Part shown: one piece after another, positions 7,260 to 30,742 of the stretch
How the letters are laid out: every line of letters begins with the position of its first letter
Position numbering within the stretch: position 1 is the first letter of the stretch
IMG/VR virus record: IMGVR_UViG_3300044712_000136
Location: 1 to 41,261 of that record
Strand: one strand, 5' to 3'
Length of the DNA stretch: 41,261 nucleotides
From: a virus
Notes under the pieces: generated by a model
Told to the model about the DNA's origin: nothing
Databases searched by the model: none
What the model saw: the letters and a program-made list of their open reading frames with translations, nothing else
Program-made: the position numbers and the translations under genes

Positions 7260-7809
7260 GGCCAAGGCCGTCGAGGGGAAGCTAGGGGCTGCCATCCAAT
7301 CCCTGCTTGGGGTTGACGACACCTTCCCGGTCTTCGTCCCGTATGCGAACTACACCAAGGGGGGTCGGACCGTCAGTGTGCGGCTGATCGAAGGCTACGC
7401 CTTCGTCGCTGCTGGCCTGCCAGAGGTGAAGTACTTCGCCCTGGAGAAGTCACCTTTGGTGGCCCGGGTGTTCTCGTCCAACGTGGGCGGGATGCGGGTG
7501 CTGCACACGCTGCCCAACAGTGAAGTGAACAGCATGCGGACTCGCTTGGCTGAGTCCTTGAGCTCTGACCTGGAGGTTGGGGCCCGTGTCCGCATCACCG
7601 GGGGGAACTACCGGGACCTGGACGGGGTGGTGGTGGACCTGTTCCCCAATCAGGTAGCTGTTCAGGTCGAGTTCAGGTCTCTTGTCACCATCGTGGTCAT
7701 TCCCCGCAACCTGGCGACCTTCGCCTCTGACGAGGCCACGAAGCAACCCCAGGATCCTGATGCAATTTCCCTTGACGAGCTGCTCGACAATGGGGAACCT
7801 TGGTTGTAG
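7204..7809 (+). CDS. NusG/RfaH-like transcription factor (NGN + KOW)
   Basis: The 201-aa protein has an N-terminal part consistent with an NGN domain (about 10-100, with FVPYANY...GYAFVAAGL) and a KOW domain at about 124-168 (VGARVRITGGNYRDLDGVV followed by VAVQVEF). NusG-family proteins bind RNA polymerase and change elongation, pausing or termination. A phage copy may reprogram host transcription. The acidic C-terminal tail is extra. The start lies 56 bp inside the dnaX-like gene, with no strong ribosome-binding site, so translation is probably coupled. It is followed by a sigma-like gene, suggesting a transcription-control pair. Confidence 0.75.
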   Translation: MDKRDETTWATLELTKAGEAKAVEGKLGAAIQSLLGVDDTFPVFVPYANYTKGGRTVSVRLIEGYAFVAAGLPEVKYFALEKSPLVARVFSSNVGGMRVLHTLPNSEVNSMRTRLAESLSSDLEVGARVRITGGNYRDLDGVVVDLFPNQVAVQVEFRSLVTIVVIPRNLATFASDEATKQPQDPDAISLDELLDNGEPWL

Positions 7810-8792: not shown

Positions 8793-9221
8793 ATGGCCTA
8801 CCAGCGAACGATCTTCGAGTTCACGTATCGGTCCGGGGTCAGCCCGAACTTCTACTACTTCACCATCTCCCTCGACCAGAGCGGGATGGTGTCGGTGAAG
8901 AACATCCAGTCCCCCCTTGGACGGATCGTTGACTCGAACACGTCCATCCCGCAGTCCGTGACCGATGACATCCAGTCGGCCATTCAACAGGTGGAGAACT
9001 TCGTGTCCCAGACCAGCGCTGTGAATGGACAACTCACCTTCGCCGGGGAGACCACCAAGACGGTGACGTTCGTGACCCCGTTCGCTGGAACGGGCTACCG
9101 GGTGGTGTTCTCGACGCAGGACTTCGTCCCCGTGAGGGTGACCAACAAGACAAATGTTGGGTTTGTGGTGCAGGTGGGGGTGACCTACTCTGGCATTGTG
9201 GGATACGATGTCTTCGTCTAG
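8793..9221 (+). CDS. Probable virion fibre-type protein with shared C-terminal module
   Basis: The 142-aa protein is beta-rich throughout, with few charged residues, as in structural proteins. Its C-terminal ~60 residues (GQLTFAGETTKTVTF...YRVVF...GFVVQV...) align by eye with the end of the beta-helix protein at 9877 (VSFGGVDTMPVTF...YTVAM...GFTVKF...), sharing G-x-[LV]-[TS]-F-x-G-x-x-T-x-x-V-T-F, Y-x-V and GF-x-V. Such a module is probably a trimer-forming or host-binding domain of tail spikes. The homing endonuclease start overlaps its last 14 nt. Confidence 0.7.
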   Translation: MAYQRTIFEFTYRSGVSPNFYYFTISLDQSGMVSVKNIQSPLGRIVDSNTSIPQSVTDDIQSAIQQVENFVSQTSAVNGQLTFAGETTKTVTFVTPFAGTGYRVVFSTQDFVPVRVTNKTNVGFVVQVGVTYSGIVGYDVFV

Positions 9222-9873
9222 GACGAAGTTGAACGGGATTTATCGTATCCTGTTGTCAAACACCCACTTCTACGTGGGAAGGTCCATGGACATCAGGCGA
9301 CGGGTGCTAACGCATCTGAGGCATCTCAAGCAGGGTAACCACGAGAATGTGTACATGCAGCGTGTGTACAACCAGTACCGTCAATTCGATTGGCAGGTAT
9401 TGCAGCCCTGCATGAGTGCCAGAGAAGCTGTAGGGGCTGAACAGGCATTGCTTACCAGTTTGGTGGGGACTGACGGATGCGTGAATCTGAATCGAAGTGC
9501 TGTTTCTGGTCCAGGGATGATGGGGAGACAACACACAGAAGCCACCAAGGTCATGATTCGAGAGAAACGGTCCCACCAGACCTTCTCTGAGGAAACACGG
9601 CAGAGGTTGTCCCTGGCAAGTCTTGGGAATCACAGGCAGAAAGGTCATTCCATTTCGGATGAAACGCGACGGAAGATCTCGTCTGCACGAACAGGGGTGG
9701 TTCTCTCGGATGCCCATCGGCGGGCATTATCACTAGCCAAAACAGGTAAGACTGTTTTGGACAAGACCCGAGAAGTCCTATCAAAAGCGCAGAAGGCTCA
9801 CTGGGAGCTGGTACGACAGGGTCAAGTTGTTAGAGGGCCGAGGTTGAATGTATCCGGCCCGAGCAAGGAGTAA
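9208..9873 (+). CDS. GIY-YIG homing endonuclease with NUMOD3 repeats
   Basis: The 221-aa protein has GIYRILLSNTHFYVGRS (the GIY...YVG core), R-R-R in the first helix, and EAVGAEQALL carrying the catalytic Glu region. These are followed by four NUMOD3-like DNA-binding repeats: GRQHTEATKVMIREKR, TFSEETRQRLSLAS, SISDETRRKISSA and VLSDAHRRALSLAKTGK. This is the typical layout of free-standing phage homing endonucleases. Its third-position base use is visibly less GC-rich than that of its neighbours, a sign of independent acquisition. It starts inside the end of the upstream gene and separates two fibre-type genes. The target site is unknown. Confidence 0.9.
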   Translation: MSSSRTKLNGIYRILLSNTHFYVGRSMDIRRRVLTHLRHLKQGNHENVYMQRVYNQYRQFDWQVLQPCMSAREAVGAEQALLTSLVGTDGCVNLNRSAVSGPGMMGRQHTEATKVMIREKRSHQTFSEETRQRLSLASLGNHRQKGHSISDETRRKISSARTGVVLSDAHRRALSLAKTGKTVLDKTREVLSKAQKAHWELVRQGQVVRGPRLNVSGPSKE

Positions 9874-15928: not shown

Positions 15929-17824
15929 ATGACCCTCGCCAGCAGTGTTCTCTCCGGTGCCCGCGCAGTTGCCCCAGTCAGCAAGGCAGCCCCTGTTGCC
16001 AATGCCATCGAGTTCGTCGAGGAGCCCTGGGGTCTGGGCGGGACGCCCGACCCGATCACCGGGGAGACGAACGGGATGCGGCTGTTTCCCGTTCAGAAGA
16101 TCATCCTCAAGGCTTCTTACGGCATCCCGCTCGACGACACCCAGCAGTTCACCATCACTGACTGGCGACGGGAGAACCCCAGGCAGTTCACCGAGAAGTC
16201 CTACCTGGAGCACCTGTACGCCGAGGGACGGTCGAACATCAAGGAGGTCATCCCAGGGCAGGAACGCCGGGAGATGGTCCTGTCCCTTGGGCGACGGTCC
16301 GGCAAGACAGCCCTCTCTGCGTGCGTGGCAGCGTTCGAGACGTATAAGCTGATCTCGAAGGGCGCTCCGCAAGCCTACTACGGGCTGCCCAGGTCCAACA
16401 ACATCCAGTTGATCTCGATTGCAACGGACAAGGAGCAGGCTGGTCTCCTCTATCAGGAGGTTTCAGGACACTTCGGGAACTGTGCCTTCTTCGGGCCGTA
16501 CACCGCGAACAACACGATGTCGTACGCGCGGTTCCAGACGCCGAAGGACATCGAGCAGTTCGGTCCTTACGTCGAGAACCCGGGGGCCAAGGCGACCATC
16601 AAGGTGACCTTCCGGTCCTGCATCGCCAAGGGCCTCCGTGGACCTGGCAACATCCTCGTCATCCTCGACGAGGTGGCCCACTTCACGGACAAGGGGCAGT
16701 CCAGCGCAGAGGCCGTCTACAACGCCATCACCCCCAGCACGTCCTCCTTCTCCCCGAAGGATCCCAAGGATCGTCGGAAGTCCATCGGTGACGTCGAGGG
16801 CCGGATCATCCTGATCTCTAGCCCCCTTGGGCGCCAGGGCCTGTTCTACAAGATGTTCCAGATCGGGATGTCCGGTGGACGGGTCGCAGACAACATGCTC
16901 TGCATCCAGGCCCCAACGTGGGAGGTCAATCCCACCATCCCGGCTCACGAGTTCGAGAAGCACTACCTGAAGGACCCCGCGGTGTTCTTCACGGAGTACG
17001 GTGGTGAGTTCTCGGACCGTACCAGGGGCTGGATCGAGCGCGCGGAGGATCTCATCTCTTGTGTAGACCCTGCTGCTCGCCCCCAGCAGCGGGGTCTTTC
17101 CCGTACGTCCCACTTCCTGGGTCTTGACTTGGGTCTCGTGGGGGACGGGACGGCGGTGGCTCTGGGTCACCTCGGTGGCGAGGGTGAGATCGTCGTGGAC
17201 CTGGTGGACCAGATCAAGGCTGGGGAGGGGAAGTTCATCGACAAGGAGCGACTGGAGTTCGATGACGTGGCCGACTGGGTGCTGGACCTGTCCAAGAGGT
17301 TCCTCATCCAGGAGGGCATGTTCGACCAGTGGGCTGGCATCCCTCTGGAGCAGGCGCTGTCCAAGCGTGGCCTGGGTCAGATGAAGTCCCAGAAGATGGA
17401 GCGGCAGCTAACCTCGCAGATGTACCAGAACTTCAAGGATATGATGTGGGATCGGCGGCTGGTCCTGTACGACTACCCGATCCAGCCTGGGGAGGCCCAC
17501 TGTCCCTACATCAAGGAGCTTCTGGAGCTCCAGGCCGAGTACCACTCGAAGTTCATCACGACCGTCGAGGCCCCGAATGTTGATGGCAAGCACGACGACA
17601 TGTCCGATGCCCTGATCCGCATGGTCTGGCTGGTGTCGAACAAGCTCACGAAGAACATCCACCTCGCAGGGGTCCGCACGCAGACGGGCCCGGTGATGCC
17701 CGCATACTCCCGTGCTGTTGCGAAGCGAAGGTTGATGCAGAGTGGTTCACACGAGTCCCGCCAGGTTCCCCGTGGGCCGATGACCCGTGGGGCATCTCCG
17801 TGGCGGAGGGGAGTGGGTCGATGA
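15929..17824 (+). CDS. terL: Terminase large subunit (TerL)
   Basis: This is the DNA-packaging motor and headful nuclease. The 631-aa protein has Walker A GRRSGKT (121-127), Walker B LVILDEVAHF (243-252, D247/E248), the coupling motif SSP (297-299) and the RNase H-like nuclease: FLGLDLGLVGDGTA with D400, and KHDDMSDALIR with D556/D557/D560 near the end. Length is slightly above the usual 450-600. About 110 residues precede the ATPase domain. The C-terminal 45 residues are basic, perhaps for portal docking. Its stop overlaps the next start (ATGA). Confidence 0.95.
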   Translation: MTLASSVLSGARAVAPVSKAAPVANAIEFVEEPWGLGGTPDPITGETNGMRLFPVQKIILKASYGIPLDDTQQFTITDWRRENPRQFTEKSYLEHLYAEGRSNIKEVIPGQERREMVLSLGRRSGKTALSACVAAFETYKLISKGAPQAYYGLPRSNNIQLISIATDKEQAGLLYQEVSGHFGNCAFFGPYTANNTMSYARFQTPKDIEQFGPYVENPGAKATIKVTFRSCIAKGLRGPGNILVILDEVAHFTDKGQSSAEAVYNAITPSTSSFSPKDPKDRRKSIGDVEGRIILISSPLGRQGLFYKMFQIGMSGGRVADNMLCIQAPTWEVNPTIPAHEFEKHYLKDPAVFFTEYGGEFSDRTRGWIERAEDLISCVDPAARPQQRGLSRTSHFLGLDLGLVGDGTAVALGHLGGEGEIVVDLVDQIKAGEGKFIDKERLEFDDVADWVLDLSKRFLIQEGMFDQWAGIPLEQALSKRGLGQMKSQKMERQLTSQMYQNFKDMMWDRRLVLYDYPIQPGEAHCPYIKELLELQAEYHSKFITTVEAPNVDGKHDDMSDALIRMVWLVSNKLTKNIHLAGVRTQTGPVMPAYSRAVAKRRLMQSGSHESRQVPRGPMTRGASPWRRGVGR

Positions 17825-18465: not shown

Positions 18466-20151
18466 ATGACGAAGAATGAAGACGCCGTCGAGGTCAGGAA
18501 GGTGACGCACAAGACCAAGGGCGTGAAGGTCGGCAAGCCCGCACGGGTCATGCTGGGATCGATGCGGTCCAAGGTGGCCTATCCCTCCACGGGCGGAACC
18601 ACGGGTGCGTCTGCTGGCAACTTCTACAGCCCCGAGCTGTCCACCGACTTCCTCGAACTGCCGCAGAGCCTGGACGAGAAGAGGAACTACCTCCGGTTCT
18701 TCTACCAGACCAACGCCTTCGTCGGGCAGGCCGTGGACCTCCACACGGAGCTCCCCCTCTCGAAGATCCGGCTGTCCACCCCCCAGGCGAAGAACCCTGA
18801 CCTGGCGAAGCGCGCTCTGGAGTTCTGCACCAAGTGGGCGAAGAACATCGGCCTCCTCCATCGCCTGATCGAGATCGTTCACGACTACAACCTCCTGGGT
18901 GAGGCGTTCGTCTTCTGTGAGGACTCGTCCCCAGACATGCCCGAGGAGATCACCCACGAGACGATCCGGGAGTTGGACGCCCAGGGGGACCCCTCCGAGA
19001 GGATCGTCCGCAGGGAAGATGCAGATGTTCGGGCCGAGAAGTGGCTGAAGCGGCACTACAAGGGATGGACGGCCATCCGGGTGTTGCCGCCCGAGCAGAT
19101 CCACATGGAGGCGTTCCCCTTCACCGATGAGCGGATGATCGAGCTGATCCCCGACTCGAAGACGAAGGATGTCGTCCAGCGGGCTGACGCCGGGGACGAG
19201 CAGGCAGTCCGCATCGTCAAGTCCATGCCGGATGGCGTGGTGGATGCCATCCGTGGGGGGTCCAACATCCCCCTCAACACGGACCCGGACGCTGGCAGCT
19301 TCGTCTACTACATGGCCCGGAAGAAGTCCCAGTACGAGCCCCGTGGGCACTCGATGCTGGAGCGGTGCCTCAACACCCTGGTCTACCGGGACAAGCTCCG
19401 CCAGGCTCAGACCTCCATCGCTTCTCGCCACATGACCCCGATCCGCATCGTGACTGCGGCTGACATGTCGGCTGCCGACACGGATGCCCTGCGGGACCAG
19501 GTGGACATGGCGCTTCAGGACCCTGACTACTCCATCGTGACCAACTTCGAGGTCAACTGGAACGAGATGGGGTCGCAGGGACGGCTGCTGGAGCTCTCCA
19601 GTGAGTACGAGATGACCGACCGGCAGATGTACGCTGGTCTGGGCGTCACGGAGTCCCTGCTGTCTGGTGAGAGCTCGTATAGCGGCGACCGGATCAACCT
19701 GGAGGTCATCAACACCCGGTACATGCTGCTCCGCGAGGTGCTTCAGGACTTCGTCGAGGACAAGATGTTCCGTCCGATGTGCCGCCGGATGGGGTACATC
19801 GAGGTCGACGACGACGGCGAGGAGACCGTGATCTGCCCGGCCCTGTCGTTCACCAGGCTGGCCCTGCGGGACAACAGCGACACCTTCGACGCCCTGTTCA
19901 ACCTCTACAACAAGGGGTCACTGGACATCGACGTCATCCTGGAGCTCCTGAACATCGACCCGCACACCACACGCGAGAAGCTCAAGCGGGACGTGTTCAC
20001 GCTCAACGACGCGAAGTTCAACGATGCCCTCTCCGCCCTCTACGGGGAGATCGGACGGCAGCTGGCCGAGAACTCCGACGCCACCCAGCGGGTCGCGGAG
20101 ACCCTCGGGCTCAAGTACAAGAAGCCTGCGGGCGAGGCTGAACGGTTCTAG
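18466..20151 (+). CDS. Portal protein
   Basis: The portal forms the dodecameric DNA gate of the capsid and nucleates head assembly. The 561-aa product follows TerL and fits portal proteins in length and features. An N-terminal variable part is followed by RNYLRFFYQTNAFVGQAVDLH, the helical segment LLHRLIEIVHDYNLLGEAFV, a barrel part (GWTAIRVLPPEQIHMEAFPF), the stem and wing helices (MLERCLNTLVYRDKLRQAQ) and the clip/crown end with SLLSGESSYSGDRINLEVIN, the usual portal segment after the G-x-x-E-S region. The stop codon is embedded in the conserved TTCTAGTCCTATTCC element. Confidence 0.88.
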   Translation: MTKNEDAVEVRKVTHKTKGVKVGKPARVMLGSMRSKVAYPSTGGTTGASAGNFYSPELSTDFLELPQSLDEKRNYLRFFYQTNAFVGQAVDLHTELPLSKIRLSTPQAKNPDLAKRALEFCTKWAKNIGLLHRLIEIVHDYNLLGEAFVFCEDSSPDMPEEITHETIRELDAQGDPSERIVRREDADVRAEKWLKRHYKGWTAIRVLPPEQIHMEAFPFTDERMIELIPDSKTKDVVQRADAGDEQAVRIVKSMPDGVVDAIRGGSNIPLNTDPDAGSFVYYMARKKSQYEPRGHSMLERCLNTLVYRDKLRQAQTSIASRHMTPIRIVTAADMSAADTDALRDQVDMALQDPDYSIVTNFEVNWNEMGSQGRLLELSSEYEMTDRQMYAGLGVTESLLSGESSYSGDRINLEVINTRYMLLREVLQDFVEDKMFRPMCRRMGYIEVDDDGEETVICPALSFTRLALRDNSDTFDALFNLYNKGSLDIDVILELLNIDPHTTREKLKRDVFTLNDAKFNDALSALYGEIGRQLAENSDATQRVAETLGLKYKKPAGEAERF

Positions 20152-20160: not shown

Positions 20161-20187
20161 TTCAGTCAGGTGGAGCCATTCCTCGCC

Positions 20188-20601
20188 ATGAAGTGTGCCC
20201 ACCTCCTGCCCATCAAGCATCCCCTGTTCAATCTGCGGGAGGTCTGTAAGCAGTGCGCGCTGCTGGAGGACCACCTCAACAGTGAGGGGAAGCAGTGTGT
20301 GGACTGCATCCGCAAGCACTTCCTGACTATCGAGGGGCTGTTCGAGGAGGCCGTCAGCCTGGACGCCCACAACCAGTGGTCGGACCTGATCGGTGGCAAG
20401 GCGGACCTGATCCGACAGCTCGAAGCCCTCTGGATCGACACCAGGTATCCTGGGGTCATCGCTCAGGGGCTACGTCAGATCCGCAAGGAGCTCACCCCCG
20501 AGTGCTTCGATCTCCGCCTCATGACCGGGGAGCGGACGGCCAGCAGGGTGGCTGATCGCTGGGTACAGAGGGGCGTCCACATCTGCGGGTCCAAGGGTTG
20601 A
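20188..20601 (+). CDS. Conserved Cys-cluster protein (137 aa)
   Basis: The protein has a distinctive zinc-like cluster: NLREVCKQCALLEDHLN, QCVDCIRKHFLTIEGLFEEA, giving CxxC...CxxC-x-x-x-H. Such NLREVCKQ proteins occur in uncultured tailed phages near portal genes, by memory and not verified. The rest is helical with a Trp-rich segment. The start could also be GTG at 20170; the ATG at 20188 is used because AGGTGGAG lies upstream. The stop overlaps the region before the next ATG. The function is unknown. Confidence 0.7.
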   Translation: MKCAHLLPIKHPLFNLREVCKQCALLEDHLNSEGKQCVDCIRKHFLTIEGLFEEAVSLDAHNQWSDLIGGKADLIRQLEALWIDTRYPGVIAQGLRQIRKELTPECFDLRLMTGERTASRVADRWVQRGVHICGSKG

Positions 20602-20603
20602 TC

Positions 20604-23600
20604 ATGGCGCCGACCAAGCTCGCCATCTACGACTTCGACGACACCCTGTTCCGCAGCCCTGTGAAGCCCATGGGCTGGGAAGGGGTGTGGTGGGGAGACC
20701 TGGCATCCTTGACGCCCCCGCTCGTTCCCGCCGTCCCAGGGCCCGAGTGGTGGAACGGGTCGGTGGTCGAACGTGCAAGGCTGGACATCGCCAACCCCAA
20801 CACTGTCACGGTGATGATTACCGGACGCCTGGCCAGGAAGTTCCCTGACCGGGTGCGTCAGCTGCTGGGCCAGGTCGGGTTGCGGTTCGACAAGCTGTTC
20901 TTCTCCCCAGGCGGGGACACCCACGCCTTCAAGCTGGAAGTGATCCGAGACCTCCTCAACGAGTACCTCTCGGTGCGGGGCGTGGACATCTGGGAGGACC
21001 GGGGAGAGAACCTTCAGCAGTACGCTGACTTCGTCGAGATCAAGGGACGCGCTGCGTTCCCACACCTGATCACGGTGCCAGCGCACCCCCTGGAGGCCCC
21101 CAGCCCGGTCAAGGTTGCATCACGGCGCCTGGCCGGGGTGAAGTCCGTCGGGCTGTTCCTGCCCCTCCCGAAGGCTCTGGCGGGGCAGTTCCCGTCCCTC
21201 GGTGAGAAGGACGACTCCCCTACCCATGCCACGCTCCTGATCGTGGGGGACATCGACCCTGACCGGGAGGACTACCTTCTGGGGGTGGTCAAGGACCAGC
21301 TCAGTCGGTGGCCCTCTCCCATCACGGCGACCCTGAAGGGGACCAACTACTTCGACAACGCGGATGCCGTCGTGGCCTACGACCGAGTGCGGTTCGACAC
21401 CGACATGGCCAGGCTGCGGTCGGACCTGGCATCGACCCTCTTCGACAAGGGCTTCTACATCGAGGACCGCTCTCCGGTCTCCTACAGTCCCCACGTCACT
21501 CTGGCCTACATGCGGCCGGGGAGCTTCGGGGAGTACCAGGGGCCGGTGCCAGAGGGCTCCTGGAGCTTCGACGAGGTCGAGATGTGGTGTCGGGATGGCG
21601 ACCCGGTGAGGATTCCCCTGGGTGGGTCTGCGGTCAGGGTGGCAGCCAAGTACAAGTCCAAGAAGAAGATCAAGACCCAGGACGGTGACGAAGCCACGGT
21701 GTACGAGTACAGCGACCGGCAGATCGCCAACCGTCACCGGGAGAAGGCCGAGCGGGTCGAGCACCTCCGCAAGAACATCTCGGACCTCCGGGCGCGGGTG
21801 CAGGATGACCTGAAGGACGAAGACCCCCAGACCAGCATGACGGCCCTGGCCGTGGCCCTGATGGATGAGACCTGCGAGCGGGTGGGGAACGACGAGTCAG
21901 CCGAGGAGGGCCACTTCGGGGTGACTGGCTGGAAGGTCAAGCACGTCACCTTCAAGGGGGACACGGCGACCTTCAAGTACGTCGGGAAGTCCGGGGTCAA
22001 GCACGAGAAGGTGGTCGACCACGGACCGACGGTGAAGGCCCTGAAGGAACTCACCAAGGGTCGGGGAGATGAGGACTGCATCTTCGAGACGGACGACGCG
22101 ACCGTCAGCTCCGACGATGTGAACGACTACCTGGCGGAGTTCGACATCACGGCGAAGGACATCCGGGGATTCCGGGCCAACGACGAGATGTTGAAGGCAC
22201 TCAAGAAGGAGCGTGCAGGCGGACCCCGAGAGCTGCCGACATCCCGCAAGGAGAAGGACGAGATCCTCAAGGCTGAGTTCAAGCGGGCCTTGGAGCACGT
22301 CGCGGAGGTGGTCGGTCACGAGTCAGCTACCCTTCGATCCCAGTACCTGGTCCCTGGCCTGGAGGACGAGTACCTCCACGACGGCACGGTGCTGAAGTCC
22401 CTCAAGGTGGGGACCAAGACCGAATCCGAACGGGAGGACGAGGAGATCGAAGAGCTCGTCAAGCCTGACCCATCCAAGAAGCCACCGCGTCACGACCTCC
22501 GCAAGGAGCGCCTGTACACGGACGATCCCGACCTGGACATTTCGGATGATGACCTGTCCATGAACTACAAGAAGGTCGCGTCCAGGTACCTGCTGGCGTC
22601 CATGACCCATCGGATCGCCCATCGGTGGCTGACTGCTGCGAAGGCGGACGAGGATGCCTTCCAGGCGTGGGCGGAGAAGCAGGGACCGAAGTTCACCAAC
22701 CCGGTGACCAAGAAGCAGGTGACCTTCAAGACTCTGGAGGGGTCGAAGTCTCCAGCAGCCAAGGCTGAAGCGAAGAAGATCCGTAAGGACTGGTCGAAGG
22801 ACAGAGAGAAGGGCCAGGGGGATCGGGAGGAGGAGTCCGCCAAGAAGGAAGAGCAGGGGCGGGCTCAGACCAAGACAGAGCAGACGGACAAGGCTGTCAA
22901 GAAGGTCACGGAGAGCATCCCGGAGGAGGATCACCTCACGGATTCCGATGCCAGTTCCCGCCAAGAGATGCTGGGGTCTGCCCTGAAGGGCCAGACCCTG
23001 GCTGGGGTCAAGGATCTGGAGGAGCGTCTGGGCAAGGCACGCAAGACCAATAGGGACCAGACTGCCAAGCTCATGGCTGGTGGGGACGACCTGGCGGTGG
23101 CCATGAAGGTCCCAGAGGGGACCTATGGCAAGGCCAAGCTGAAGAGCCAGTCGTTCAACCCTGACGAGTCCGAGGCGATCATCAAGAGGACCACATCGGC
23201 ACGGGACGAGGTTCAGTCGCAGATTGATGCCCTCAAGAAGCCGGATCCGACCAGCACCGTGGATCCGAACGACCCCAAGACCAAGAAGAAGATCGAGAAG
23301 CTGGAGCAGGATCTGGGCGCTCAGAATCAGGCCCTGAACGTCATGGTGGCCTACCACGTCGGGATGGTGGAACTGACGGGTGCCTTGTCCAAGCCCAGTG
23401 GCTCGGATGACCCCAAGAAGCGCCTGTCTGAAGCCGCCAAGTCCTACAAGACGCTGCCGAAGGACGTCGCCGCGAAGCGGAAGGAACGTGCCGAGGCCGA
23501 CCAGAAGCACTTGACAGACGAGTTGGACAAGGCCACCGAGGCTGACAAGCCTGGTCTCCAGAAGAAGCTGGACGTTGCCAACGCCGAGGTCGCTGCTGCC

Positions 23601-24278
23601 AGGTACCACGAGATCACCACTGGTGGAGAGAAGGGTGATGACTCCGTCTCGAAGCTGGTGGGCAAGTTCAAGCACCTGGGCCCCAACAGCCCGCACATCC
23701 AGGCCCTCCTGCTGGAGGGGACCGGCACTGAGGCTGGCCGCAAGGCGATGTTCACCCTGTGCTCTCGGATGTCCGACAAGGATCTTGTCGAGTTCGCGGG
23801 GGAGCACGCGAGCGGTCTGGACTTCTCCAACATGGGGAAGGGTGCAGCGGAGTTCGCCAGGAAGGCGATCCTGAACCGGGTGATGATGGCGGAGTCCGAT
23901 GACGAGATCACGGAAGAGGAACTCGAAGGTCTCGACGCCTCTGTGAAGGGCATGGTGGAGAAGACCAAGGGTGACCCCAAGGCCGAGAAGGGTGTCCGGG
24001 CGTGGCTGGGCAAGACGAAGGACGTCTTGACCAAGGGGCGAAAGTTCCAGCGGGTCTCTGACTGGTTCAAGAACCTCGACTTCTTCAAGAAGGCTCCAGC
24101 CCAGCCTGTCCCCCCCAAGTCCGAGGCTCAGAGCGTTCAGGATGGTGACCACCCCTTCCGTGGGTCCCCTTACCCGAAGTCTGCTGGGAAGCCCAAGAAG
24201 CAGGCATCCTCAGACGACATCGCCTCAGTAGTACTCGTTGCTGACCGTTTCCTAGCCTATTGTGAGGGGAATGGGTAG
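20604..24278 (+). CDS. HAD + 2H phosphoesterase + topoisomerase IB fusion protein
   Basis: This 1224-aa protein has three enzyme-like domains. (1) Residues 1-165 are a HAD phosphatase of the Swiss Army Knife RNA-repair type: YDFDDTLF (D10, D12), ITGR and EDR-x-E. (2) About 181-340 is a 2H phosphoesterase with H208-A-T and H297-V-T (THATLLIV, SPHVTLAYM). (3) About 365-590 is a eukaryote/poxvirus-type topoisomerase IB catalytic core: ERVGN (R426), YVGKSG (K462), ITAKDIR (R521), VGHESATLRSQY (H572, Y581). The H-to-Y spacing of 9 equals that of vaccinia topoisomerase. The remaining ~630 residues are charged and partly coiled coil. Copies of a VA[AS]R peptide lie between domains. A TTG two codons upstream is an alternative start. 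The product may be virion-delivered; this is inference. Confidence 0.85.
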   Translation: MAPTKLAIYDFDDTLFRSPVKPMGWEGVWWGDLASLTPPLVPAVPGPEWWNGSVVERARLDIANPNTVTVMITGRLARKFPDRVRQLLGQVGLRFDKLFFSPGGDTHAFKLEVIRDLLNEYLSVRGVDIWEDRGENLQQYADFVEIKGRAAFPHLITVPAHPLEAPSPVKVASRRLAGVKSVGLFLPLPKALAGQFPSLGEKDDSPTHATLLIVGDIDPDREDYLLGVVKDQLSRWPSPITATLKGTNYFDNADAVVAYDRVRFDTDMARLRSDLASTLFDKGFYIEDRSPVSYSPHVTLAYMRPGSFGEYQGPVPEGSWSFDEVEMWCRDGDPVRIPLGGSAVRVAAKYKSKKKIKTQDGDEATVYEYSDRQIANRHREKAERVEHLRKNISDLRARVQDDLKDEDPQTSMTALAVALMDETCERVGNDESAEEGHFGVTGWKVKHVTFKGDTATFKYVGKSGVKHEKVVDHGPTVKALKELTKGRGDEDCIFETDDATVSSDDVNDYLAEFDITAKDIRGFRANDEMLKALKKERAGGPRELPTSRKEKDEILKAEFKRALEHVAEVVGHESATLRSQYLVPGLEDEYLHDGTVLKSLKVGTKTESEREDEEIEELVKPDPSKKPPRHDLRKERLYTDDPDLDISDDDLSMNYKKVASRYLLASMTHRIAHRWLTAAKADEDAFQAWAEKQGPKFTNPVTKKQVTFKTLEGSKSPAAKAEAKKIRKDWSKDREKGQGDREEESAKKEEQGRAQTKTEQTDKAVKKVTESIPEEDHLTDSDASSRQEMLGSALKGQTLAGVKDLEERLGKARKTNRDQTAKLMAGGDDLAVAMKVPEGTYGKAKLKSQSFNPDESEAIIKRTTSARDEVQSQIDALKKPDPTSTVDPNDPKTKKKIEKLEQDLGAQNQALNVMVAYHVGMVELTGALSKPSGSDDPKKRLSEAAKSYKTLPKDVAAKRKERAEADQKHLTDELDKATEADKPGLQKKLDVANAEVAAARYHEITTGGEKGDDSVSKLVGKFKHLGPNSPHIQALLLEGTGTEAGRKAMFTLCSRMSDKDLVEFAGEHASGLDFSNMGKGAAEFARKAILNRVMMAESDDEITEEELEGLDASVKGMVEKTKGDPKAEKGVRAWLGKTKDVLTKGRKFQRVSDWFKNLDFFKKAPAQPVPPKSEAQSVQDGDHPFRGSPYPKSAGKPKKQASSDDIASVVLVADRFLAYCEGNG
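24241..24263 (+). promoter_or_regulatory. Late-promoter-like element, copy 2
   Basis: CTGACCGTTTCCTAGCCTAT (continuing TGT) lies within the last codons of the fusion gene, 86 nt upstream of the scaffold-like gene at 24350. It aligns with the elements at 20138, 34501 and 39479. The segment up to 24349 has no other gene. Confidence 0.4.
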
Positions 24279-25141: not shown

Positions 25142-25690
25142 ATGCTGTCCCGTCGGGGTAACTACGCCAACTTCCAGGCGAGGGCTGAAGCCTTCAAGGT
25201 CAGGGACCGTGTGTTCCCTGTCCTGGGGGGCAATCCGTCCAACGGCGGTGTCGTCGTGGCGGTGTGGCCTGCCATCGGGATGGTGGACGTGCAGTACCCC
25301 TACGGGGTCTCTCGCACTCCCGTGGAAGACCTGCTGATTGACAGGGGGACCACCCTGGACCCCGAGCCTGACATCCAGGCTGACAGCATCCCCGGTGGGA
25401 CGCACACGGTCTCCGTACCTGGTGGACCTGGCCCGGAGAAGTTCGACTCCACCCACCGGGTGGCTCTCCAGTACGTCAAGCAGGCGGTGTACTGGGCAGC
25501 CAAGGGTCGTCTGTACAAGCCCACGAAGACCGAGATCGAGACCGGGCAGTTGTGTTGCCCGCGTTGCGAGGATGCCTACCTCCGCAAGACCATCTACATG
25601 ATGGAGGGTGGCACCAGGGTCAAGATGTTCGTCTGTCCAGGGTGCCTGTTCCTCGTCCGACGGGACGACATCATCGGCTTCGAGGAGTAA
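25142..25690 (+). CDS. Zinc-ribbon protein with N-terminal beta domain (182 aa)
   Basis: The N-terminal part is a small beta domain (VRDRVFPVLGGNPSNGGVVV, then AIGMVDVQYPYG), resembling an SH3/KOW-like barrel. The C-terminus carries a zinc ribbon C139-x-x-C142...C165-x-x-C168 (CPRC, CPGC). No catalytic motif is seen. It lies between the scaffold-like protein and the protease-like gene, so a role in head assembly is plausible but not proven. Confidence 0.7.
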   Translation: MLSRRGNYANFQARAEAFKVRDRVFPVLGGNPSNGGVVVAVWPAIGMVDVQYPYGVSRTPVEDLLIDRGTTLDPEPDIQADSIPGGTHTVSVPGGPGPEKFDSTHRVALQYVKQAVYWAAKGRLYKPTKTEIETGQLCCPRCEDAYLRKTIYMMEGGTRVKMFVCPGCLFLVRRDDIIGFEE

Positions 25691-25694
25691 TGCC

Positions 25695-27116
25695 GTGCCC
25701 TTCCTCCGCTACGCCAACGCTCGTGCAGTCCACCCAGTTCTAACGGGACAGGGATGGGACCGGGTGCGGGTAGCAGCGGCCAAGGCGCGGCTGGACCGCA
25801 ACCTGGTCGATCAGGCATCGAAGATCCTGAACGAGCAGTTCGACCCCTCGAAGTACCTGCTCTCGCACGCGACCATCGTGGCTTCGGTAGACACCCTGGA
25901 CGTGCCCCGCGCACGCTTGGGGTCGTCGACGGTGGATGGCAAGAAGGTGATGCGGAAGACGACCTCGTACCGCATCAAGCCAGAGTGCGAGCAGTACATC
26001 AACAACAACTTCGACTCGTGGGACCGTCCGGTCCTGCTCAAGTCGTACCCGACCTTCGTCGGGGCGCACAACTTCCTCGAACACGTCCAGATCGAAGACC
26101 TGTCCAAGGGCCGAATCCTTGACGCGGTGGCCAGGGACATCGGGGATTCCGTCTACGTTGACATCCTGATCGCCACGGCCCGGAAGCACGCGGAGCTCAT
26201 CAAGGAGATCGAGTCGGGCGACCTGGCCACCCTGTCGATGGGGTGCAGCATCGACGGCTCGACCTGTACCAAGTGCGGCCACTGGGCGGCGGACGAGACT
26301 GAGTTCTGCGACCACGTCAAGTACATGAAGGGCAATACCTTCTACGACGAGCGTGGGAACAAGCACAGGATCGCGGAGCTCTGTGGGGACGTGTCCCTGG
26401 ACCCCACTGGGGGTGTCCAGTTCATCGAGGCTTCCTGGGTACGGATCCCTGCGTTCAAGGGGGCTGTGGCCCGGAACGTCATCACCTTGTCGTCTGGTGA
26501 CAGGGAGAAGGTGGCCGAGCGCATCCACAGGGTGTTCTCGTTCCCAGCCCCCCAGATCCCGGCGGATGGTCAGCTGAAGGCCGCAAGGCTCCTCATGGCT
26601 GATGACTTCGGAGTGGGTGAAGAGGGCGAGGCACCTGCTGCGCCTGCGGCCCCGGCGGAACCCGTGAGCCCCCTCAAGGCGTTGGAGGACGAGCTGAAGC
26701 AGCATGTCCTCGACAACGTGACGAAGAGCCTGAAGGAAGAGCTGGCGAGGACTGACCTGTCCAAGTCGCTCCTGCCTGCCTCGACTGCTCCGAATGACAC
26801 CGTGGTCAAGCAGGCCCGGTTGAAGAAGGCTGAGTACCTTTCCCAGATGCGGAAGGCAGTCAGCATTGGGACGGATCTGGAGGTCATCCAGAAAATCGCA
26901 CGCCTGAACAGGCGGTACGCGATTTTTGTCCCCGTTCTTCTCTATCGCACGGCCCTGAAGGTCGGGGGCTCTCATCGATATGCGAGCCTCCCAGAGTTCA
27001 TCACCCAGTGTAGAGGGTATCTTGGAAGGTCCCCAACAGTGGGGGAAGCTCGGACCCTGGTCCGCCTCGCCAAGCTGCTCGCAACCCGTAGAGTCGGCGT
27101 CAAGCCGAATCCCTGA
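25695..27116 (+). CDS. Prohead-protease-like protein with zinc insertion
   Basis: The GTG at 25695 gives 473 aa. The protease-like region runs from about 55 to 260: SHATIVASVDT, H130 in FLEHVQIEDLSKGRILDAVA, YVDILIATARKH, then SGDLATLSMGCSID with S181. This order (His, a G-R strand, an acidic strand and LS-x-G) is that of HK97-type/U35 prohead proteases, which cut scaffold and capsid proteins. A zinc knuckle, CTKCGHW...CDHV (191-207), is inserted directly after the proposed Ser. The C-terminal 200 residues are helical, with an Ala/Pro linker. An N-terminal RVRVAAAKARLDR precedes the domain. The position between scaffold-like genes supports the call; catalysis is not shown. Confidence 0.6.
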   Translation: MPFLRYANARAVHPVLTGQGWDRVRVAAAKARLDRNLVDQASKILNEQFDPSKYLLSHATIVASVDTLDVPRARLGSSTVDGKKVMRKTTSYRIKPECEQYINNNFDSWDRPVLLKSYPTFVGAHNFLEHVQIEDLSKGRILDAVARDIGDSVYVDILIATARKHAELIKEIESGDLATLSMGCSIDGSTCTKCGHWAADETEFCDHVKYMKGNTFYDERGNKHRIAELCGDVSLDPTGGVQFIEASWVRIPAFKGAVARNVITLSSGDREKVAERIHRVFSFPAPQIPADGQLKAARLLMADDFGVGEEGEAPAAPAAPAEPVSPLKALEDELKQHVLDNVTKSLKEELARTDLSKSLLPASTAPNDTVVKQARLKKAEYLSQMRKAVSIGTDLEVIQKIARLNRRYAIFVPVLLYRTALKVGGSHRYASLPEFITQCRGYLGRSPTVGEARTLVRLAKLLATRRVGVKPNP

Positions 27117-27131
27117 AGGAGAACACCCATC

Positions 27132-28652
27132 ATGACCCGACGCCGTCTGACCTGGAACGACAAGACCGCCTCTGCTCCCCCGGCAACGCCTGGGTACCAG
27201 GAGCCGTCGAACCACCCGGCCGCGTACCCGGATCCCGAGGCTGACGCCTACGAGAACGGTGACACCTCGTCGTGGGCCGAGGACCCCACCAAGGGCCCCT
27301 ACGCCAACACCTTCCACCCGGCCCTCCCGGGCACCGAGGAGCCCCAGGGGCACCCGGCGACCGACCCCAAGCACTACTTCCCCGCTGGCGTGGCGAAGCA
27401 GGCGAGCCGCGAGCTGCGCGCCGCCGTCGAGGCGAAGGCCGCGAAGTGCATCCGCATCGCGCAGGCGATGCTGGGCAAGAAGGCCAGCGTCGAGGTCGTC
27501 GAGGAGCAGGCCCTGGACCTCATGAACCTCTCCGAGCGTCAGATCCAGGCCGCGCTGCGCCGCCTGTCGGCTGGCTGCGAGGGTGGCGACCTGATGGCCG
27601 TGACCAACGAGACGCTGACCCCGCCCCGCAAGGCGGAGGGCGATCCCACCGAGGACGCGATCATGGCGATGCTGGAGGCAGGGGAGACCCCCACGGCCGA
27701 CGACATCATCCTCTCGGAGATCCTGGCCGAGGAGCAGGCGAAGGCTGCTCGGGCACGGGCCGCGGACCAGAACAGCCCGGCGACCTACATGGCCGATGGC
27801 GAGGACGCCGAGGCGATGCTCGCGGAGATGCTCGCGGAGGAGGCCAAGAAGGCTTCCGTGAAGAAGGCCGAGGAGCCCAAGGCCGAGGAGCCCAAGGCGG
27901 ACGAGAAGAAGTCCGAGGAGCCGAAGGCCGACGAGGAGCCGAAGGCCGACGAGGACCCCGCCAAGAAGTCCGCCCACTACCAGCGCCTCGCCGCCTACTG
28001 GGAGCGCGTCGCCAAGAAGGGCGAGGAGGAGCCGAAGGCCGACGAGGAGCCGAAGGCCAGCAAGAAGTCCGAGGAGCCGAAGGCCAGCAAGAAGGCCGAC
28101 GAGCCCAAGAAGGACGAGGAGCCCAAGGCGGACGAGAAGGACGAGCCCAAGGCCGACGAGGAGAAGGCTTCCGCCAAGAAGGCAGCCCTGAAGATCCTCG
28201 CGGGTCTGGACCTGTCCGCCGACGTGCAGTCCGCGCTGAACGACCTGCTGGCCGAGGAGCCCGTGGCCTGCGGCGAGCCGGTCGTGGCCGAGGAGCCCGT
28301 GGCCGAGGAGCCCGTGGCCTGCGGCGAACCGATGGGCGACGACTTCCTGATGGACGACCTGGGCCTCATGGACCCGATGGACCCCGGCATGGACCCCGGC
28401 ATGGACGACCTCGCCATCCTCTACGGTGGCCACACCGCGTCCGAGGAGAAGGCCGACGAGGAGCCGAAGGCCGAGGAGAAGAAGTCCGAGGAGCCCAAGG
28501 CCGGGAAGACCGCTGCGGTCAAGCCCCAGCCCCGCAAGCCCTCCGCTGGCGTCAAGACCCTGGGTGCGGTCGCCAAGGTCGCGTCCAGTGACGTGGACGA
28601 CCTGTCGAAGCTCTGGGAGTCGGCCCCCGACGTGTCCAAGATCTTCGGCTGA
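27132..28652 (+). CDS. Scaffold-like head protein with extended Lys/Glu/Pro repeats
   Basis: The 506-aa protein has a Pro/Asp-rich N-terminus and a helical domain with RIAQAMLGKK and LMNLSERQIQAALRRL. Acidic helices follow (EDAEAMLAEMLAEEAKKA), then long EEPKADE/KKSEEPKA repeats (about 240-355), a Val/Glu/Pro segment (EEPVACGEPV) and Met/Asp-rich DPMDPGMDPGMDD. The C-terminal helix is LSKLWESAPDVSKIFG. A strong AAGGAGA ribosome-binding site and extreme GC3 indicate high expression. Its place just before the decoration and capsid genes, with a terminal amphipathic helix, is typical of scaffolds, whose C-terminus binds the capsid protein. The assignment is by shape and place. Confidence 0.6.
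   Translation: MTRRRLTWNDKTASAPPATPGYQEPSNHPAAYPDPEADAYENGDTSSWAEDPTKGPYANTFHPALPGTEEPQGHPATDPKHYFPAGVAKQASRELRAAVEAKAAKCIRIAQAMLGKKASVEVVEEQALDLMNLSERQIQAALRRLSAGCEGGDLMAVTNETLTPPRKAEGDPTEDAIMAMLEAGETPTADDIILSEILAEEQAKAARARAADQNSPATYMADGEDAEAMLAEMLAEEAKKASVKKAEEPKAEEPKADEKKSEEPKADEEPKADEDPAKKSAHYQRLAAYWERVAKKGEEEPKADEEPKASKKSEEPKASKKADEPKKDEEPKADEKDEPKADEEKASAKKAALKILAGLDLSADVQSALNDLLAEEPVACGEPVVAEEPVAEEPVACGEPMGDDFLMDDLGLMDPMDPGMDPGMDDLAILYGGHTASEEKADEEPKAEEKKSEEPKAGKTAAVKPQPRKPSAGVKTLGAVAKVASSDVDDLSKLWESAPDVSKIFG
27862..28185 (+). repeat. In-gene Lys/Glu/Pro-coding repeat, block B
   Basis: Tandem variants of GAGGAGCCGAAGGCCGACGA and AAGAAGTCCGAGGAGCC code KADEEPK and KKSEEPKA units. They are interrupted once by SAHYQRLAAYWERVAKKG; a further short block lies at 28441-28510. 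The units match block A at 24958. Confidence 0.7.
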
Positions 28653-28834
28653 TCCTTCAGCCTGATCCTCCCGCCTGAAGATTCTGATCCCCCTCCTCGT
28701 TTTCCCTTCAATACTCGACCCCAGTAAGTACGGGAACCTTCCCGAAGAAACTCGCAGTCCTTCTGACATGGTGTCGTGAGGGCTGCGGGTAAGCTCACAC
28801 TCCCCTGAGAACAGGGAGCAAAGGCTAGGTCATC
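28653..28834. promoter_or_regulatory. Intergenic region before the capsid genes
   Basis: This 182-bp gap carries no convincing gene. It contains a short perfect hairpin CGGGAACCTTCCCG (28731-28744), a T/C-rich tract (CCCCCTCCTCGTTTTCCCTT) and AATACT, which could be a -10. A GGGAGCAAAGG stretch precedes the next ATG. It may hold a promoter for the capsid transcript; nothing more can be said. Confidence 0.3.
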
Positions 28835-29527
28835 ATGCCGTTGCTTGGACAGGCGAGTGGTGGCTGGACGGAGTCCTCGTCGGCTCTGCGGATCCTGCAC
28901 GTCGGCGTGCGGAACACCGTGGGCGTCCTGACGGACGACTCCTTCACCCAGACCAACCCTCCGATCACCACGACCGCCGGGACGATCAGCACGTCCCCCG
29001 GCTGTCTCACCGAGGTACTCGGTGTCCTCTCGGGCTCCGTGGCGTTCACGCGCCCCGACGCGGGCTCGAACCACATCGGTGGCCCGACGGTCACTGCCAT
29101 GGCAGCTCCGCTGTCCGTGACGCAGGTGCTCCCCCTGGGCTGCTTCATCAACAACGCCGCCGGGAACCCCTACGAGAACCTCCCGGCCAGCGCCTCGGGC
29201 AAGGGCCCGTACGTGTCCGCGATGGGCACCTACGGCAACCGCCTGTTCGAGACCCAGGTGCTCGTGACCACCGCTGCCGCGACGGCAGCTGGCACGGCCC
29301 TCACCTACGTCACCGGCATGCGGCTCGTTGCCTCGCGCAACGGCTACCTGATGCCGACCGTGGTGTACGCTGGTGGCGTGCTCGACCCGATGGACTCGGG
29401 TGCGACCGCGACCTCCAACTCGCTGGAGGCAGCCAACCTGGCTGGTGGGGTGGCAACTGTCATCGGCATCCTCAAGATGCCTGCGGACTCGGTCCAGACC
29501 GAGATCGTGTTCGACCAGAGGATCTGA
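28835..29527 (+). CDS. Putative capsid decoration/minor head protein
   Basis: The 230-aa protein is beta-rich, almost free of Lys and rich in Thr, Ala, Gly and Val, a composition of decoration or minor capsid proteins. It lies between the scaffold-like gene and the major capsid gene. No motif is diagnostic. GC3 is very high, suggesting abundant expression. It could equally be a head-fibre or vertex protein. Confidence 0.6.
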   Translation: MPLLGQASGGWTESSSALRILHVGVRNTVGVLTDDSFTQTNPPITTTAGTISTSPGCLTEVLGVLSGSVAFTRPDAGSNHIGGPTVTAMAAPLSVTQVLPLGCFINNAAGNPYENLPASASGKGPYVSAMGTYGNRLFETQVLVTTAAATAAGTALTYVTGMRLVASRNGYLMPTVVYAGGVLDPMDSGATATSNSLEAANLAGGVATVIGILKMPADSVQTEIVFDQRI

Positions 29528-29542
29528 GAGGAGAACACGAAC

Positions 29543-30424
29543 ATGAACACCCCCAACGTCAGCACCGCGATCAAGCAGAAGATCATCGGGGACTACATCA
29601 AGACCGCCGCGGGCCGCGCCAAGCTCGCCGCGTCGATGACGCAGCCCCTCCGCACCCGCCGGGACTACATGAGCGTCGGTCGCAAGACCTTCCTCGTGGA
29701 GCAGCTCCCCGACGGCGCCCTGCCGATCTACGACAAGGACCCGGATGTGACCGCGTACGTGGTCGGTGAGGAGGGGGAGAACATCCTCGCCATCACCAAG
29801 CCGCGCCGCGTGATCTTCCCCCTGTTCGAGATCGCCTCGAACCCCGAGATCCCGCTCACCCAGATCAAGGAGCGGCGCTTCGACCTGATCGAGCGCTCCC
29901 AGGATCTGGCCCGCGCGATGATCCAGGCCGCCGAAGACGAGAGGGTCTTCGCAGTCCTCGACGCCATCGCGGTGAACGGCTTCGACAGCATCGCAGGGAA
30001 CACGAACCCCGACGTCCCGGTGGTCGCTCCCCTGAACGGCCCGGTCCTGGCCGACGCCTTCGCCCTCATCGAGCGCCACGACCTCCGGGTCGCCCGCGTT
30101 TACATGAACGCGAGGGACTACGCCGACGTCCGCAAGTTCGGCCGCGACATCCTGGACATCGAGAGCCAGGCCACGCTGCTGAAGACCGGCCTCCAGGCCA
30201 CGCTCTGGGGCGCGCAGGTGATCACCAGCCGTCTGGTCCCCGCTGGCACGGTGTACGTGTGCTGCGAGCCCGAGATGTTCGGTCGGATCCCGGTCCGCAC
30301 CGAGCTCACGGTCCTCTCGGCCGACGACCCCAAGGCCCGCACCATCGGCTTCTCGGTGTTCGAGAATTTGGGCATCGGTGCCTACAACCCGCGAGGGTTG
30401 ACGCGCCTCACGATCACTCGCTGA
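29543..30424 (+). CDS. Major capsid protein (HK97 fold)
   Basis: The 293-aa protein has the expected HK97-type features: a basic N-terminal arm, an E-loop region (FLVEQLPDGALPIYDKDPDV), the spine helix region DLARAMIQAAEDERVFAVLD and a beta-rich P- and A-domain end (LWGAQVITSRLVPAGTVYVC, GFSVFENLGIGAYNPRGL). It has the strong ribosome-binding site GAGGAGA and the most biased codon use in the window, and is followed by a strong terminator. The position after protease and scaffold genes is classical. No propeptide is obvious; about 20 N-terminal residues (MNTPNVSTAIKQKIIGDYIK) could be trimmed. Confidence 0.85.
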   Translation: MNTPNVSTAIKQKIIGDYIKTAAGRAKLAASMTQPLRTRRDYMSVGRKTFLVEQLPDGALPIYDKDPDVTAYVVGEEGENILAITKPRRVIFPLFEIASNPEIPLTQIKERRFDLIERSQDLARAMIQAAEDERVFAVLDAIAVNGFDSIAGNTNPDVPVVAPLNGPVLADAFALIERHDLRVARVYMNARDYADVRKFGRDILDIESQATLLKTGLQATLWGAQVITSRLVPAGTVYVCCEPEMFGRIPVRTELTVLSADDPKARTIGFSVFENLGIGAYNPRGLTRLTITR

Positions 30425-30481
30425 TCGTGAACTGCCCTGATTCCCGGCCTTCCTAGCCATTCCACCAACACCAACCACGAA

Positions 30482-30506
30482 GCCCGGCCCCGAGAGGGGT
30501 CCGGGC
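30482..30506 (+). terminator. Hairpin terminator after the major capsid gene
   Basis: A 10-bp GC stem (GCCCGGCCCC with GGGGTCCGGGC, one bulged T) with a GAGA tetraloop lies 58 nt after the capsid stop. The following sequence (CAAGTGCTATTTG) has only a weak T stretch. It should end or attenuate the head transcript. Confidence 0.7.
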
Positions 30507-30565
30507 CAAGTGCTATTTGTCACTACCAGGTACGCCAGAAAGCGACACCCGAGGCCCTTCGTGAG

Positions 30566-30742
30566 ATGGTAGCCAAGGGGGTGCCCATCCGACAGATAGC
30601 TGTCAGGCTCGGTGTTGGAGGGGCAACCGTGGACCGCTGGTTGCGGAAGCTGGGGATTGCACACCCACGCAAGGTAGGTCGACCTTTGATGCTGGATGGG
30701 CGTAATGGCTCGTATGGATCCATCTGCGATTTCCATCTCTAG
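30566..30742 (+). CDS. Small helix-turn-helix protein or remnant
   Basis: From ATG at 30566 the frame gives 58 aa: MVAKGVPIRQIAVRLGVGGA, then TVDRWLRKLGIAHPRKVGRP. This is a good HTH of the resolvase/endonuclease-associated type. The first helix (TPEALREMVAKG) lies upstream of the ATG, and in that stretch the frame has no ATG, GTG or TTG; an ATT at 30515 is the only start-like codon. The gene is thus either truncated, started unusually, or the remnant of a larger protein such as a homing endonuclease with an N-terminal HTH. It overlaps the next gene by 47 bp. Confidence 0.4.
   Translation: MVAKGVPIRQIAVRLGVGGATVDRWLRKLGIAHPRKVGRPLMLDGRNGSYGSICDFHL

Follow-up and report, generated by a model that had tools for sequence, protein, structure and literature searches.

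A portal-proximal phage protein that combines HAD_SAK, 2H and type IB topoisomerase domains: a candidate head-packaged enzyme for RNA-end healing and DNA relaxation

The locus

IMG/VR virus record IMGVR_UViG_3300044712_000136 is 41,261 bases long and was analysed as a whole (hereafter, the window). At positions 20604..24278 of its plus strand lies one open reading frame (ORF) of 1224 amino acids, the subject of this paper, in which a HAD_SAK phosphatase domain, a 2H phosphoesterase domain, a type IB topoisomerase (TopoIB, or Topo in lists of modules) and a helical tail follow one another, as judged from the open frame, Pfam and AlphaFold. We refer to it as the fusion ORF.

The gene order of the window begins with a clamp loader and leads further on to the terminase large subunit (TerL, 15929..17824), the portal protein (18466..20151; phrog_16240, E 3.5e-35), a protein that we call UP143 (20170..20601), the fusion ORF and then, after an interval, the head maturation protease (25608..27116; phrog_18299, E 2e-12) and the major head protein (29543..30424; phrog_2522, E 5e-47), all from TerL onwards on the plus strand. 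The order TerL, portal, UP143, HAD/2H/Topo, protease (and major head protein) is kept in at least five contigs, so the location beside the portal and among head genes, claimed in an earlier sequence-only reading of this DNA, is a conserved one. UP143 is a conserved, Cys-containing protein of 143 amino acids without a Pfam family, which in two related loci (L100 and L109) is part of larger proteins, joined there to HAD or Topo modules.

The window portal is 77% identical over 96% of its length to that of LR745208.1, a 485-kb uncultured phage, 38% identical to that of Tunturiibacter phage Tunturi_5 and 26% identical to that of Bacillus phage G. These portal similarities make it most likely that the window is part of the genome of a huge phage. 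A profile search of genome contigs with the TopoIB alignment gave no match, and therefore no link to a host or prophage was obtained.

Domains and active sites

Third-position guanine plus cytosine (GC) content is 0.80–0.91 throughout the fusion ORF, and GC by codon position is steady along its whole length. We take the ATG at 20604 as its start; the upstream TTG at 20598 seems unlikely in this role. Three Pfam models match the protein above their cut-offs: HAD_SAK_1 at residues 26–145 (E 1.9e-19), 2_5_RNA_ligase2 at 204–333 (3.9e-7) and Topoisom_I at 376–576 (3.7e-29). PHROGs has no family for the protein, and its sequence matches in the PDB are chiefly type IB topoisomerases, plus a weak match to a 2'-5' RNA ligase.

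The HAD_SAK phosphatase domain (PF10307; 20604..21098, residues about 1–165) has the conserved residues D10, D12, T73, K110 and E131/D132. The 2H domain (PF13563; 21144..21626) carries the two motifs H208xT and H297xT and is assigned by its fold and by profile matches to structures of LigT and cyclic phosphodiesterase (CPDase) type. The TopoIB domain (PF01028; 21657..22403) has R426, K462, R521, H572 and Y581. Conservation of these residues was counted over 29 aligned sequences or fragments. Both HxT motifs are kept in all nine aligned 2H sequences, while K462, R521, H572 and Y581 are kept in 12 of 12 aligned topoisomerases, and R426 likewise in all of them (a few letters in its column belong to non-Topo fragments and were judged misaligned). 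The HAD motif residues, namely the DxDxT nucleophile motif (DFDDT), the T of motif II, the K of motif III and the acidic pair of motif IV, are kept in nearly all HAD rows, with motif IV slightly variable.

An AlphaFold model built on the 29-row alignment has a mean predicted local distance difference test score (pLDDT) of 86.6, mostly above 90 in HAD and Topo and about 90 in 2H, and low-confidence linkers at residues 166–177 and 343–349 part the three confident domains. When the domains were compared with the PDB by Foldseek, the Topo domain matched poxvirus, bacterial and human TopoIB (down to 1e-12) and the 2H domain matched drCPDase (9e-8) and E. coli LigT (4e-7). For the HAD domain the closest solved fold in the search was the 3'-phosphatase of T4 Pnkp (8e-4); its profile has no significant sequence match in the PDB, so that the likeness to Pnkp comes from fold comparison only. 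The domain and structure check proposed together with the sequence-only reading thus returned TopoIB, 2H and HAD folds on the three segments, and every residue which that reading had named in the single 1224-residue frame (the DxDxT of HAD, the two HxT of 2H and the TopoIB pentad) is present, with Pfam, AlphaFold and Foldseek in agreement. As far as sequence and models go, it is confirmed that the protein carries HAD_SAK, 2H and TopoIB folds with conserved active sites; the activities are predicted.

The remainder of the protein is a charged, all-helical tail of about 567 amino acids (22593..24233). It is clearly conserved in two related loci (L017 and L020) and more weakly in two others (L067 and L081). 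It has no profile match and no fold match in the PDB, and so no known fold.

One gene or two

Relatives were obtained by scanning viral contigs with alignments; the same scan with the single full-length fusion protein found no relative. Three close relatives have the same modules (L017, L020 and L067), and in all three HAD is a separate gene of about 180 amino acids; its TGA stop and the ATG of a 2H-Topo-tail gene overlap (TGATG). At the corresponding site the window has GGGGTGAAG, which is 5 nt shorter and has AAG in place of ATG, and HAD is in frame with 2H. The junction contains a GGGG run (21135..21138, plus strand). One G fewer in this run would put the TGA that now stands at 21139-21141 in frame with HAD and so end it, with a GTG in place as the start of a separate 2H-Topo gene. 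An exact-DNA scan for another copy of the junction found none. Hence the claim of a single-gene triple fusion stands in one respect, that the frame is open in the window, but the fusion is not the norm of the family: since HAD is separate in these relatives, the three-in-one frame is, by sequence, private to the window contig and dependent on the run of four G.

It could be argued that an assembly error of one base, or a defective allele, has produced the triple fusion, and that the true layout is a HAD gene with an overlapping 2H-Topo-tail gene. The relatives are indeed split exactly at this junction, and the loss of one G would restore the stop with a start codon at hand. However, the site differs from that of the relatives by 5 nt and not by 1, and their ATG is AAG in the window. 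Moreover, fusions of HAD occur elsewhere: LR745208 and L081 have it joined to Topo, L109 to 2H, and L071 to Topo together with a 2H of CPD type. In our opinion such an error or defect is rather doubtful; it concerns gene structure only and is compatible with any function.

Module shuffling in relatives

Module layouts were derived from profile scans of the fetched loci together with Pfam. According to these, HAD is fused to Topo in LR745208, where 2H and the tail are absent from the protein and a 2H protein (L013) is found elsewhere in the genome. L081 likewise has HAD-Topo without 2H, and its tail is weakly alignable to that of the window. HAD adjoins Topo or UP143 in L102 and L125. Other loci bring in a PolyA_pol domain: L109 has PolyA_pol, HAD_SAK and 2H in a protein of 927 amino acids, followed by UP143, TopoIB and InPase (E 1e-39) in one of 1785; L100 has UP143, a CPD-type 2H, PolyA_pol, HAD_SAK and a charged tail in one of 1556, upstream of the protease; and in L072 and L078 the portal is followed by a protein with 2H and PolyA_pol and then by a TopoIB protein of more than 2000 amino acids. 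In L073 and L074 TopoIB is fused to LPD1 (E ~1e-7). Finally, the 1045-amino-acid protein of L071 has TopoIB, a stretch that by eye is like an HExxH peptidase, a CPD-type 2H and HAD_SAK, and is probably an independent triple in another module order; its CPD-type 2H is 54% identical to the L100 segment, for which PF08302 gives its best E value of 7.6e-6 (only 0.02 for L071).

In about 12 contigs the portal and HAD, 2H or Topo genes lie inside the same few kb (a profile-scan count that includes some near-duplicates). HAD_SAK (PF10307) occurs in tens of contigs, where it mostly forms a small protein by itself. Two further observations concern the 2H module. In L020 (8537-8800) the 2H is internally deleted between the two HxT motifs and one histidine motif is left, which is either a real inactivation or an assembly collapse. 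L163 (3073-12327) encodes a polyvalent-like protein of 3085 amino acids with lysozyme-like SLT, 2H and strawberry-notch-type helicase domains.

A recurring motif at domain joints

A short motif, RVAxRYL in its typical form, recurs in these proteins. In its strict form we define it as [VI]A-x-[RK]-[YFW]-[LIMV], usually preceded by K or R. There are 23 strict copies in 26 HAD, 2H, Topo or UP143 proteins, while shuffling gives an expectation of 0.53 (maximum 3 in 300). The proteins are partly related and the copies are therefore not all independent, yet the flanking domains are unrelated. In whole-genome ORF sets 9 copies were observed against 1.9 expected in LR745208, and 8 against 0.6 in another contig of the group (G002). 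When H is allowed at the aromatic position, half of the copies (22/44) lie within 25 residues of the protein start or 30 of its end, where about 21% are expected, and the motif marks 7 of 15 HExxH proteins (Fisher p 1e-6, with ORFs called mechanically and relatives included).

In the fusion ORF, copies stand in the HAD/2H linker (KVASRRL, 21111..21131, within the low-pLDDT linker 166–177), at the 2H/Topo boundary (RVAAKYK, 21636..21656, at the low-pLDDT residues 343–349), between Topo and tail (KVASRYL and RIAHRWL, 22572..22631) and at the C-terminus (VADRFL, 24237..24254), all on the plus strand. Beyond it the window has motif sites in 20170-20601, that is in UP143, at its C-terminus, and in 35832-38246. 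The same position at domain joints and protein ends is seen in L017, L020, L067, L102, L109, L072, L078 and LR745208. In LR745208 and its relatives the motif is also found on HExxH metallopeptidases and on a C39-like peptidase; these enzymes, too, may be packaged.

In 6652 amino acids of TerL, portal, protease and major head protein of the group there is no copy of the strict motif, and for this reason we rejected, as a general rule, the idea that it marks where the prohead protease cleaves the major head protein; a role in the cutting of the cargo proteins themselves is possible. Our hypothesis is that the motif may be a packaging tag which doubles as a module joint. In a wider form, which we offer tentatively and consider less likely than not, this becomes a system of tagged cargo in the huge phages of this group: RVAxR(Y/F/W)L would steer 2H, HAD_SAK, TopoIB, HExxH metallopeptidases and the C39-like peptidase into the head and would also be the joint where fusion, splitting and loss of modules take place. 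HAD-2H-TopoIB would be the RNA-repair and DNA-topology member of the system. The motif is new as far as we have searched, and its recurrence would offer a simple handle for predicting packaged proteins of huge uncultured phages.

RNA-end healing and its alternatives

We favour a role in RNA-end healing, because the 2H fold resembles CPDase/LigT and the HAD fold the Pnkp phosphatase, and because the same modules are repeatedly fused to PolyA_pol/CCA-type nucleotidyltransferases in relatives; the latter bears out the link to RNA repair that was drawn from the window sequence at first. Where host defence RNases have cleaved tRNA or another RNA, 2',3'-cyclic phosphates would be left behind; the 2H domain would open the cyclic end, the HAD domain would strip the remaining phosphate, and an RNA_ligase, RtcB or CCA-adding enzyme, either from another phage gene or, in relatives, fused to the modules, would complete the repair. 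The protein would be packaged in the head and enter the cell along with the DNA, and TopoIB would relax the incoming genome without ATP, ahead of phage gene expression. The substrates, the injection and the cooperation between domains are what we infer here. Partners for the last step of repair are encoded by relatives: LR745208 has three RNA_ligase matches over the cut-off and RtcB, the L074 contig has one RNA_ligase and one RtcB, and PolyA_pol is present in five of nine records. A review of jumbo phages predicts the same succession of 2H, HAD-SAK phosphatase and ligase or CCA enzyme, as separate proteins (PMC7824862).

Several points weigh against this proposal. The 41-kb window, itself a fragment, has no recognised RNA ligase or CCA enzyme, and there is no RNA_ligase or RtcB match in G001, G002 and G003, which are among the closest contigs and are all fragments too. 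LR745208 and L081 lack the 2H domain in this protein, and that of L020 has an internal deletion; the domain is therefore dispensable or replaceable. In the survey of polyvalent proteins by Iyer et al. 2017 (PMC5512222), 2H domains were never seen associated with RNA ligases, and a role as RNase or in signal degradation was preferred. TopoIB, for its part, could serve ordinary late DNA metabolism.

The same survey offers counter-defence as an alternative for polyvalent 2H domains. Applied to the present protein, 2H would degrade cyclic or 2'-5' oligonucleotide signals of cyclic-oligonucleotide-based antiphage signalling systems (CBASS) or of type III CRISPR, HAD would remove the resulting phosphates, and TopoIB would be a passenger. 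Members of the 2H superfamily do degrade such signals, and the 2H fold matches include viral 2'-5' oligoadenylate and poxvirus cyclic GMP-AMP (cGAMP) phosphodiesterases. However, it is LigT/CPDase enzymes that 2H matches best in profile and in fold, and the repeated fusion to CCA-type nucleotidyltransferases and HAD_SAK points to RNA ends. We therefore consider counter-defence of this kind unlikely. The Acb1-like, anti-CBASS role suggested by analogy in the sequence-only reading is less favoured on grounds of similarity: an Acb1 structure (9q2g) is matched at only E 0.15 and the Acb1 Pfam model PF23474 does not match the fusion protein.

Packaging into the head

That the protein is packaged in the virion is probable, as inferred from the position of its gene and from fusions with domains of polyvalent proteins. 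Several enzymatic domains lie in one polypeptide and the gene adjoins portal and terminase, as is the case for polyvalent proteins; Pfam finds no LPD or similar domain in the window protein, and relatives join TopoIB to LPD1 or InPase, as described above. Domains of the 2H type are known in polyvalent proteins that are thought to be packaged (PMC5512222).

A presence in the head might also have another meaning. The helical tail could be a head component (scaffold, core or ejection conduit) on which the enzymes ride along, acting during genome packaging in the producing cell, with TopoIB relieving torsion, and not after injection. The gene does sit among head genes, the tail is conserved together with Topo, and TopoIB genes lie within structural clusters of other jumbo phages (PhiXhv-15, PaBG). 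On the other side, no part in assembly is known for 2H or HAD_SAK modules, and the tail is wholly absent in LR745208. In our opinion a function in assembly is improbable.

For a portal-proximal cargo protein of polyvalent type, probably packaged in the head of a huge phage and linking two RNA-end-healing enzymes to TopoIB, we would put the probability at about 0.5. Phage RNA-repair enzymes are usually pictured as expressed after infection; HAD_SAK, 2H and CCA-type enzymes that are joined to one another and tied to the portal gene suggest that repair of tRNA damage could be carried in the particle, ready at entry before phage transcription. We found no paper that combines topoisomerase IB with virion and portal, and the PaBG paper mentions topoisomerases once, under DNA replication and processing. 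Neither the single domains nor multi-domain phage proteins linked to the portal are new as a class. Within the reach of our search, the novelty lies in TopoIB as a member of this class and in the presence of HAD_SAK and 2H (with or without a CCA-type enzyme) in one polypeptide at such a locus.

Other features of the window

A gene like those of homing endonucleases lies at 9196-9873 (phrog_314, E 1e-16), and one like a NusG/KOW-type antiterminator, at 7204-7809, adjoins the clamp loader. Two long antisense frames on the minus strand, 25740-28769 (1009 amino acids) and 28421-30736 (771 amino acids), run over the head genes and are probably by-products of high GC, not genes.

Comparison with known systems

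A close parallel is with the phage polyvalent proteins (Iyer et al. 2017, PMC5512222), which have several enzymatic domains per long protein, genes beside portal or terminase, and modular shuffling. They include 2H fused to portal/MuF, and an InPase domain, and LPD1 is joined to the TopoIB family of the window in L073/L074. In contrast to them, the window protein itself has no LPD domain that we could find; the word topoisomerase is absent from the main text of the survey, nor did we find a HAD_SAK-2H-Topo order described there. The coupling to TopoIB adds a DNA-topology function that is absent from the survey.

With the HAD Swiss-Army-Knife phosphatases of jumbo phages (PMC7824862) the protein shares PF10307 and the predicted removal of 3'/2'-phosphates in RNA repair. 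Those are reported to be typically stand-alone, whereas HAD is here fused to Topo, 2H or PolyA_pol. T4 polynucleotide kinase-phosphatase has the 3'-phosphatase to which the window HAD is closest in fold (5uj0, template modelling (TM) score 0.69 by target length), but the window protein has no kinase domain. LigT/ThpR-type 2H phosphoesterases (E. coli LigT, drCPDase) have the same two HxT motifs and duplicated fold and give the best profile and fold matches, although the window 2H is only ~17–20% identical to LigT/drCPDase and lies within a multi-domain phage protein. Finally, TopoIB of the subgroup 2.2 jumbo phages (PaBG, Lu11, Motura, RSL1) shares the catalytic core, and its genes too lie within or close to structural clusters; it matches the window protein in the Topo part only, at 23–31% identity.

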